From: Actinophytocola xanthii
Lineage (GTDB): Bacteria; Actinomycetota; Actinomycetes; Mycobacteriales; Pseudonocardiaceae
Length of the DNA: 62,509 bases
Assembly: GCF_001921205.1 (NCBI RefSeq)
Contig: NZ_MSIE01000042.1
Location: forward strand, 1-62,509
Direction: 5' to 3'
The translations under genes and the position numbers were made by a program. Shown here piece by piece: positions 22,502 to 44,134 of this stretch. How positions within the stretch are numbered: position 1 is the stretch's first letter; the number at the start of each line of letters is the position of its first letter. Under the pieces are notes generated by a model. That model was given only the letters and a program-made list of their open reading frames with translations. It made no database searches and was not told the origin of the DNA.

Positions 22502-22663
22502 GGGCGCGTCCTCACAGTCCCGGTCGATGGGCTTCGTGATCCAGGTCGTCGCTGGCAAGGCGGAGGGCAGGCCTCGTACCGGTCGTTCTCGGCCTGTCCC
22601 GACAACGCCGCCAGCGGCGGGCTGGGCGCGAAGACCGCGACCGCGGGCTGTGCGGACGTGCCC
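22502..22663. mobile_element. MITE-like repeat, copy A
   Basis: A 162-bp sequence about 90 percent identical to the reverse complement of 43350-43511. The ends form an imperfect 19-bp terminal inverted repeat (GGGCGCGTCC..CAGTCC against GGGCACGTCCGCACAGCCC). TA precedes the left end; the right flank is TC, so the target duplication is no longer intact. There is no transposase. It fills the gap between two convergent genes. The length, inverted ends and TA flank fit a non-autonomous element. Confidence 0.8.
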
Positions 22664-42027: not shown

Positions 42028-43350
42028 GTGCGAGGACAGCGACGACGGACGGTGGCCATCCTCACCCTGGTCTGGGTGGTCGGTATGGCGACGGCATGCA
42101 GCAAGGTCACCGCGGGTGTCCCGGTCGCCGACCCCGACGCGAGCGTGCGCCCCGAGGTGTCGAACGAGCCGGTCGAGCTGACCGTCTCCAGCTTCGGGGA
42201 GTTCGGGTTCGACGCGCTGCTGGAGGAGTACCAGCGCCAGCACGAGAACGTGACCATCAGGCACGACAGGACCACCGACAGCGCGAGCTACCTCCCCAAG
42301 CTGCAGGCCAGCCTGGCCGCGGGCACGGCCTCCGACGTCGTCGCCATCGACGACTTCGGCATGGCGGCGTTGCTCGACCAGCCCGACCTCTTCGCCGACC
42401 TCGCCGAGGTCGGGCCCGACGACGTCAGCGCGGAGCGCTGGCTGGACTGGGTCCACAAGGGCGGTATCGCGCCGGAGGGCACCTGGGTGGGCTATGGCGT
42501 CGACATCGGACCGACGGCCATGGCCTACCGCACCGACCTGTTCGCCGCGGCCGGCCTGCCCACCGAGCCGAGCGAGGTCGCCGCGCTGTTCGAGAGCTGG
42601 GACTCCTACTTCTCCGCCGGCGACCGATACGTCCAGGCAACCGGAAAGCCCTGGTTCGACTCGAGTGCGCAGGTCTTCACGGTGATGCACAACCAACTCG
42701 AGACCGGCTACTTCGACGAGGACGGCGCGCTGGTCATCGAGAGCAACCAGCGGATCAAGGCGAACTGGGACCAGGTCACCGCCGCGGCCGGGCGCGGCCA
42801 GTCGGCCAAGCTGCCCGCGTTCATGCCGGAGTGGATCAGCGGCCTGGGGAAGCCGTCCTTCGCGACGATGCCGGCGCCGTACTGGATGCTCGGCCTGATC
42901 GAGGCGCACGGAGGTCCGTCGAACGCCGGGAAGTGGGCCGTGGCGCCCGCGTTCCCCGGCGGCAGCGCCAACTGGGGCGGCTCCTACCTGGCCGTGCCGG
43001 CGCAGGGCGAGCACCCCGAGGAGGCGGCGGCCCTGGCCGCCTGGCTCACCGCGCCCGAACAGCAGCTCACCGCGTTCGAGACGGCCAGCGTGTTCCCGGG
43101 CCAGGTCGAGGCGCTGGAGTCGTCGACGCTGCGGGGGGCCACAAAGGACTACTTCACCGGCGAGAAGACCGCGGGGGTGTACGCCGAGCTGGCGACGAAG
43201 GTTCCGGTGCCGCGCCAGCCCGGCGCGAGGAGCGGCGAGGTCCAGCAGCAGGCGGTCGTGCCCGCACTCCAGGCCGTGGACACCGGCCTGCCGCCGGACC
43301 AGGGTTGGCAGCAGGCGGTGACCCAGGCCAAGCAGGTCGCCGGGCGTTAG
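42028..43350 (+). CDS. Orphan sugar ABC-transporter binding lipoprotein
   Basis: 440 residues from a GTG. The lipobox is MATACS (Cys24). The mature part is a solute-binding protein of the CUT1 sugar class: VELTVSSFGEFGFDALLEEYQRQHENVTI, LQASLAAGTASDVVAIDDF, a GYGVDIGPTAMAYRTDLF hinge and C-terminal AAWLTAPEQQ. No permease or ATPase gene follows; instead a MITE-like repeat begins at its stop codon, whose final G is the first base of the element. It may serve a transporter encoded elsewhere. Confidence 0.88.
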   Translation: MRGQRRRTVAILTLVWVVGMATACSKVTAGVPVADPDASVRPEVSNEPVELTVSSFGEFGFDALLEEYQRQHENVTIRHDRTTDSASYLPKLQASLAAGTASDVVAIDDFGMAALLDQPDLFADLAEVGPDDVSAERWLDWVHKGGIAPEGTWVGYGVDIGPTAMAYRTDLFAAAGLPTEPSEVAALFESWDSYFSAGDRYVQATGKPWFDSSAQVFTVMHNQLETGYFDEDGALVIESNQRIKANWDQVTAAAGRGQSAKLPAFMPEWISGLGKPSFATMPAPYWMLGLIEAHGGPSNAGKWAVAPAFPGGSANWGGSYLAVPAQGEHPEEAAALAAWLTAPEQQLTAFETASVFPGQVEALESSTLRGATKDYFTGEKTAGVYAELATKVPVPRQPGARSGEVQQQAVVPALQAVDTGLPPDQGWQQAVTQAKQVAGR

Positions 43351-43511
43351 GGCACGTCCGCACAGCCCTCGATCGCGGTCTCCGCGCCCAGCCCGCCGCT
43401 GGCCGCGTTGTCGGACAGACCGAGTACAACCCGGTACGAGGCCCGCCCTCCGCCTTGCCAGCGACGACCTGGATCACCAAGCCCATCGACCGGGACTGTG
43501 CGGACGCGCCC
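43350..43511. mobile_element. MITE-like repeat, copy B, flanked by TA
   Basis: 162 bp, reverse complement about 90 percent identical to copy A. The ends form a 19-bp terminal inverted repeat with two mismatches (GGGCACGTCCGCACAGCCC against GGGCGCGTCCGCACAGTCC). TA precedes and follows the element, a 2-bp target duplication. The left TA plus G is the stop codon of the binding-protein gene; the right C plus TA is the stop codon of the TetR gene on the other strand. No transposase is present. Confidence 0.85.
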
Positions 43512-44134
43512 TAGCGGAAGGTCCTGGCGAACGTCTCCACGTGCCGGAGGATGTCCGCGCGGGCCGTGGCGCGCTCCTCGCCGGTGGCGCCCGCGTGCAG
43601 GTACAGGATGCGGGTCAGGCCGATGGGGGCGGTGAACGCCAGGGCGAGGTCGCGGGCCGAGCCGCGGTCGGGCGGTAGCCGACCGGTGGCGATCCAGCGT
43701 TCCAGCAATCCGGCGACCGAGGTCCGCATGGCCTCGACGGCCTCGCGCAGGGCTGGGGTGTGCAGCAGGCCGTCGCGGGCCAGCAGGCTGATCAGCAGCC
43801 GGGCGTCGGGGGTGTCCCACTCGTCCAGGAACGCGTGCACAAGCTCGCGGAGGTAACGCGGCGGGTCGGCGTCGGCCTCGGTGGGGTTCGCCGGCGCGGG
43901 TGGACCCGAGGGCCCGAACTCGGCCAGGACGGCGTCGAAGATCGCCTGCTTGCTGGCGAAGTGGGCGTACAGCACGCTCTCGCTGAGGCCGACCTCGCGG
44001 GCGATCGCCCGGATCGAGGTTCCGGCGTAGCCGTTGCGCGCGAACAGGCGCAGCGCGGCGCGCCGCAGGACAGCCTTCGTGTCGCCCGCGTCCGCCTTGC
44101 GTGGACGGCCTGGGCGTCTCCTGGTCTCCGCCAT
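43511..44134 (-). CDS. TetR-family regulator
   Basis: 207 residues. The N-terminus is basic (TRRRPGRPRKADAG), then the HTH: AALRLFARNGYAGTSIRAIAREVGLSESVLYAHFASKQAIF. The rest is the helical ligand domain. Its last codon is followed by a TAG made by the end of the MITE. It is divergent from a 221-residue unknown gene, with a perfect 18-bp palindrome 12 nt upstream of its own start, so both genes are probably under its control. Confidence 0.92.
   Translation of the reverse strand: MAETRRRPGRPRKADAGDTKAVLRRAALRLFARNGYAGTSIRAIAREVGLSESVLYAHFASKQAIFDAVLAEFGPSGPPAPANPTEADADPPRYLRELVHAFLDEWDTPDARLLISLLARDGLLHTPALREAVEAMRTSVAGLLERWIATGRLPPDRGSARDLALAFTAPIGLTRILYLHAGATGEERATARADILRHVETFARTFR

Follow-up and report, generated by a model that had tools for sequence, protein, structure and literature searches.

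The window, a 62,509-nt stretch of DNA from Actinophytocola xanthii, carries a mobile element of 162 bp at positions 43350–43511, between two convergent genes. The plus-strand gene to its left (42028–43350) encodes an extracellular solute-binding protein (domain matches SBP_bac_8/SBP_bac_1), and the minus-strand gene to its right (43511–44134) encodes a TetR-family regulator (TetR_N). The element gives a full-length match to our covariance model R1 on the minus strand, the strand on which the hairpin structure is conserved and which we call strand S. A TA lies directly on either side, at 43348–43349 and 43512–43513, as expected for a target-site duplication; the left junction reads CGTTA followed by GGGCACGTCC and the right junction GGACGCGCCC followed by TAGCGG. 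The left TA opens the TAG stop codon of the binding-protein gene, which ends in CGT-TAG with the first G of the element as its last base, and the right TA, read on the minus strand, opens the TAG of the TetR gene (CGC-TAG), again completed by the terminal base of the element. Joining the flanks rebuilds an empty site, CGTTAGCGG, in which the plus-strand gene stops with TAG and the minus-strand gene with TAA; our own gene finder, trained on the source genome, places both stops on the TA of this joined site. The original prediction of a miniature inverted-repeat transposable element (MITE) inserted in the TA common to two convergent stops, both of which are now completed by its terminal bases, is thus borne out by the sequence, with a MITE-like element and a TA on both sides. 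The proposed extent of 43345–43516 includes some flanking bases in addition to the element proper.

It had further been proposed that the insertion left both proteins intact. For the binding protein this agrees with its full-length homologues, which at all 14 loci (12 distinct places; a fifteenth locus, L050, is a partial match and was set aside) end one or two residues earlier than the window protein; the latter was therefore not shortened by the insertion. At locus L224, the TetR homologue extends about 11 codons beyond the window protein, so that for the TetR end the claim stands on the reconstructed site. We searched for orthologues of the TetR gene in six genomes of the genus and 390 of the family, and for the binding protein in relatives and GTDB contigs. 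TetR homologues at E ≤ 1e-35 occurred in three other of the 390 family genomes, and the flanks fetched around these three contained no match to the binding protein; homologues of the latter sit in other gene contexts than the window locus. Among the relatives searched, no locus with both genes and no empty orthologous site of the window locus was found. The binding-protein gene at 42028–43350 is also a paralogue with no co-directional gene behind it; behind every full-length homologue, a gene of about 1 kb runs in the same direction.

The element ends in imperfect terminal inverted repeats, GGGCACGTCCGCACAGCCC on the left (43350–43368) and, on the right (43493–43511), a sequence whose reverse complement is GGGCGCGTCCGCACAGTCC. 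Both mismatches between the two repeats become G·U pairs on strand S. At least 38 essentially full-length copies are present in the source genome (G000), a lower bound as 40 of 262 candidates were scored; we left out the duplicates L001, L073 and L139 as well as copies with fewer than 150 aligned bases, including the cousin at L097. This cousin (G000:C183, 12693–12854) is itself full-length and scores 165 bits with R1. With its length of 162 bp, its copy number and its inverted ends, the window element has the properties of a MITE. A second copy in the window, at 22502–22663, also lies between convergent genes; strand S is the plus strand here, and its right TA has been lost by mutation to TC.

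To judge the position within a shared stop codon, we classed every TA in 800 kb of the source genome, using the gene finder trained on this region; stop codons are therefore those of our own, uncurated gene calls. Only 5 of 7091 TA dinucleotides lay in two convergent stops, and measured against all TA the preference of the copies for stop codons was huge (p = 6e-18). The copies, though, do not sample all TA: among the 27 with TA on both sides, the reconstructed target was CTAG in 21, TTAG in 3, and GTAG, CTAC and CTAA in one each. As the non-CTAG copies retain the GGG/CCC ends of the element, the duplicated sequence is TA. CTAG is rare in this high-GC genome. The 132 CTAG sites of the background fell into two convergent stops in 4 cases, one stop in 28, gene interiors in 29 and intergenic regions in 71, so that 103 of them were stop codons or intergenic; the 38 copies comprised one in two stops (the window copy), 15 in one stop, one inside a gene and 21 in intergenic regions. 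A shared convergent stop was hence hit by 1 of 38 copies vs 4 of 132 CTAG sites (1.2 expected; Fisher p = 1.0). The suggestion that this position is remarkable or favoured by the copies does not survive once the CTAG preference is counted; the placement follows from the choice of CTAG as target together with the loss of harmful insertions. For this element family, the stop-codon coincidence is ordinary.

One could nevertheless argue that insertions in stop codons were selected or kept because the element has a function there, for instance as a bidirectional terminator between convergent genes. Its hairpin is very stable, and 16 of the 38 copies sit in a stop codon compared with 32 of the 132 background CTAG sites (p = 0.04). 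This excess is, however, no longer significant when coding interiors are disregarded (16/37 vs 32/103, p = 0.23), and shared stops are as frequent as expected. Both orientations occur, and relative to tandem neighbour genes the orientation is random (6 co-oriented, 7 opposed), which suggests that the fold serves the element and argues against a fixed role at host loci.

Shortened copies bear on the same question. By an end-pattern search of the source genome we recognised by eye, among the matches listed, at least eight internally deleted copies with both ends. In seven of the eight, TA is present on both sides (L144 has CA at one end), each of the eight has at least one end at a called gene stop, and three (L145, L147 and L148) lie between two called convergent stops. 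Among the matches listed, solo and deleted ends coincided with gene stops in 10 of 20 cases vs 17 of 65 ends of full-length copies (p = 0.057), a comparison of small numbers in which the search pattern itself demands TAG. A function at stops would fit these figures, yet retention of the ends as stops also follows if the middle of the element can be deleted and a stop codon cannot. It is plausible, then, that loss of the middle is tolerated and the TAG-spelling ends stay, and we regard a terminator-like role as rather unlikely. The two 40-bp derivatives L145 and L148 (G000:C153 and C163) have the same deletion between GCGCCC repeats, and both lie between two convergent TAG stops; the identical deletion looks like recurrent slippage. 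Solo remnants of about 15 bp (TAGGGCACGTCCNCA) were seen at L134, L135, L139, L140, L149 and L153, with about 0.3 exact matches expected by chance in a hand estimate.

An empty site could be examined for a relative of the element in Streptomyces plasmids, in which the family is present and to which the window element as query gives partial matches only. In Streptomyces sp. ADI95-16, a family copy follows a gene for an MBL-fold protein. The orthologous site is empty in plasmids of S. goshikiensis and Streptomyces sp. Mg1, reading ...CGCTAG and then GCGC; six other plasmids cover both flanks of the ADI95-16 copy over a shorter span, three of which were aligned. The aligned sites read CCGCGCTAGGCGC when empty and CCGCGCTAG...CACTAGGCGC when occupied. 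An empty CTAG thus corresponds to an occupied CTA-element-TAG, demonstrating the target-site duplication for a family member, and the target TAG is the annotated stop codon of the MBL-fold gene, re-formed by the element. The comparison with an empty orthologous site proposed for the window copy has in this way succeeded for a Streptomyces member of the family, with the same stop-codon event. In two of the four plasmid regions opened, an annotated CDS ends exactly at the edge of the matched element, and the plasmid records opened carry no annotation of it.

The family is widespread among actinomycete families, often with at least ten copies per genome. Counting hits of about 47 bits or more, R1 matched (E ≤ 1e-5) in 32 of 148 Actinomycetes genomes from 12 families as labelled, and in 8 of 149 genomes of a phylum sample, three of which are also in the class sample; copy numbers are lower bounds, with at most 19 candidates scored per genome. 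In a control on 800 kb of the source genome, R1 picked up one more cousin (165 bits), and the best-scoring sequence that was not an element reached 26.8 bits. Hits outside the class were weak, and of three opened only L277 had the exact motif. In the class elements selected for folding (see below), TA flanked both sides in 26 of 40, usually as CTA and TAG.

RNA folding of the window element gives a single rod for the minus strand, at -120.1 kcal/mol (z -9.0), compared with -82.7 kcal/mol (z -4.9) for the plus strand; folded as DNA, the minus strand is favoured less sharply (-56.9 vs -47.3). For the second copy, strand S reaches -120.5 vs -97.2 kcal/mol. The same strand was the more stable one in all 43 non-redundant elements from 12 genomes including the source (155–172 bp, below 93% identity, with the number from G000 limited; mean -124.5 vs -98.7). 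It was again so in all 40 further class elements from 20 other genomes (-116.8 vs -93.6), which were selected from the listed R1 hits with at most three per genome and were not used for the model. The orientation of the fold agreed with that of the sequence motif in 40 of these 40, both motif words being exact in 28 and neither in 9. Within the rod, the two sides of a conserved internal loop, GGCAAGGCGG (43450–43459) and its partner CCGACAACGC (43405–43414), both read on the minus strand, correspond mostly to nearly invariant columns of alignment A1. A k-turn or self-cleaving ribozyme was considered for this loop and dropped, as Rfam gave no support and the bulge polarity, judged by eye, is reversed.

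Compensatory changes affect 54–55 of the 62 consensus pairs of alignment A1. The covariation score of 0.591 exceeds both the shuffled (0.208) and the slid controls (about 0.1), as required of a structured RNA, and compensation is not confined to the terminal repeats, for 38 of 45 core pairs show it as well. Because related sequences inflate such counts, more weight falls on the comparison of the two strands. On strand S, G·U exceeds A·C by 3- to 10-fold depending on the method, in cells that shared ancestry makes non-independent. The counts were 344 G·U vs 33 A·C with pairs from the RNA-based consensus, which is biased towards G·U. With strand-symmetric self-alignment they were 374 vs 81 in the 43-element set (G·U commoner in 42 of 43 elements) and 241 vs 74 in the 40-element class set (37 of 40). 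Ungapped ends gave 144 vs 27, counted over the 67 distinct end pairs that remained from 99 elements examined once a length of 155–172 bp and 14 or more matches in the 20 end bases were required; in this test G021 (3 vs 3) and G004 (1 vs 1) showed no asymmetry.

These counts bear on the possibility that symmetry of the DNA alone is selected and no RNA is involved, the transposase needing inverted ends and template switching or gene conversion correcting quasi-palindromes. Such processes would account for compensatory changes in general, but they predict equal numbers of G·U and A·C per strand, contrary to all four counts, and core pairs away from the ends compensate too. They would, on the other hand, explain why, in some genomes, the two ends of one copy resemble each other more than they resemble the ends of other copies. 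Comparing elements of 155–172 bp with register allowed for, we found fewer differences per 16 bases within than between copies in G013 (2.8 vs 6.2–6.3), G021 (0.6 vs 4.2–4.4), G004 (0.1 vs 1.7–2.0), G009 (1.0 vs 2.4–2.8) and G020 (1.0 vs 4–5), and slightly so in G005 (2.3 vs 3.2–3.6). No such difference was seen in G000, G002, G019 and G036, in keeping with what a single dominant, recent subfamily would produce. Such copy-to-copy differences in part of the genomes are odd for ends recognised by one transposase and count against the reading we prefer, transposition in trans combined with selection on one folded strand. Overall, selection on DNA symmetry alone is already disfavoured by the strand asymmetry and seems improbable. 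It is likewise unlikely that the element carries along a mutational bias specific to one strand, as its two genomic orientations speak against this.

The element is too short to encode a transposase, and we looked for a partner among the insertion sequences (IS) of the source genome. At G000:C165, an IS with split ORFs, both matching NF033580 above cut-off and also PF13340 and PF01609, belongs to the IS5 family, presumably its IS427 subgroup. It abuts a cousin of the window element with which it has 18 of 20 terminal bases and the TA/CTAG target in common, identifying an IS5-family partner for this cousin; the core of the element, compared by eye, is unlike the abutting IS. Of the ten DDE_Tnp_1 loci in the source genome, C165 alone contains an IS whose ends are similar; at a second locus, L160, a window-type end lies alongside at the edge of a contig. 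The 204-contig draft of the source genome yielded no IS carrying the ends of the window subfamily itself (GGGCRCGTCCGCACAG). TA-flanked inverted ends (GGGCNTGTC or variants), mostly as CTA...TAG, were present at 16 of 20 IS loci examined out of 30. IS of this kind (NF033580) and the element are therefore alike in their related ends, CTAG target and TA duplication, and differ in that the element lacks a transposase-sized length.

The TA duplication would also suit a MITE of the Tc1/mariner (IS630) family, for which a CTAG preference has been reported, but this is very improbable, since the source genome has no match to PF13358 (IS630 DDE_3) and the IS with matching ends is of the IS5 family. 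A search of the source genome with PF13359 gave no match either. The idea that the element is a regular part of an IS was rejected, as R1 hits occurred at only three places (L227 on both strands, L235 and L249) in the 30 IS loci. At L154 (G000:C165), the IS5-family IS directly abuts the cousin element and a piece of a window-type end, an arrangement that looks like insertions nested in CTAG sites created anew. In G036 (C1:8412234–8413091), a match to an IS5-family transposase is immediately adjacent to another cousin element.

Taken together, our preferred reading, to which we assign a probability of roughly 70%, is a non-autonomous, MITE-like element of about 162 bp that is moved in trans by an IS5-family transposase into CTAG and in which one folded strand is under selection, most likely as an RNA copy. 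An IS5-family DDE transposase would act in trans, insert the element at the TA of CTAG and duplicate this TA; the same IS family probably transposes the window subfamily. With CTAG rare and intragenic insertions rare among the survivors (1/38), copies lie in intergenic DNA or in TAR stop codons. The first base of the element is G and the last is C, and TAG is therefore restored by TA plus G on either strand, making insertions into stops, even shared ones, harmless. The whole element, ends included, is kept on one strand only as a single rod-like hairpin. This points to selection on a single-stranded form, most likely strand-S RNA rather than single-stranded DNA, that would serve the element rather than each host gene.

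The placement in stop codons thus illustrates how the target of a transposon together with its terminal base can render insertions harmless. MITEs are usually treated as DNA-only parasites. The extensive compensatory change that keeps one strand folded makes an RNA or single-strand stage or product of a bacterial MITE directly testable. A more far-reaching scheme, which we consider doubtful, would take the mobile strand-S structured RNA (or single-stranded DNA) itself as the unit of selection. This rod of 157–165 bases with the conserved loop GCAAGGCG / CGACAACGC might have spread through the Actinomycetes by means of the terminal repeats of successive IS5-family transposons, with both arms re-paired each time and the folded strand needed to propagate.

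Rfam returned no match above gathering score, and only chance-level hits at E ≤ 5, for window positions 43200–43700 and nine loci from class genomes, and a literature search at the level of titles and abstracts found no description of this element family. Mycobacterial MIRU repeats, which insert at overlapping stop/start codons, share the insertion at stop codons, but lie at tandem operon junctions and are not known to carry inverted repeats. Passages on the short interspersed, MITE-like RUP, BOX and SPRITE repeats of Streptococcus pneumoniae describe strong predicted RNA folds and an over-representation between convergent genes (PMC3049150; PMC2229807). BOX encodes the stop codon of a gene in 36 cases (PMC3049150), and RUP, which targets TA, is believed to be mobilised by IS630-Spn1 (PMC2229807). 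As described there, these repeats resemble the window family in being MITE-like, folded and stop-forming, but differ in sequence and host; the class-wide spread, copy-specific matching ends and G·U vs A·C asymmetry seen here are not reported in those passages. Correia/NEMIS and ERIC/IRU elements, described from Neisseria and enterobacteria, are 100–200 bp long, with terminal repeats, TA at the termini and long stem-loop transcripts, and NEMIS RNA has been proposed as an RNase III substrate (PMC2229807). By that description, the window element matches them in size, terminal repeats, terminal TA and stem-loop, and differs in its host.
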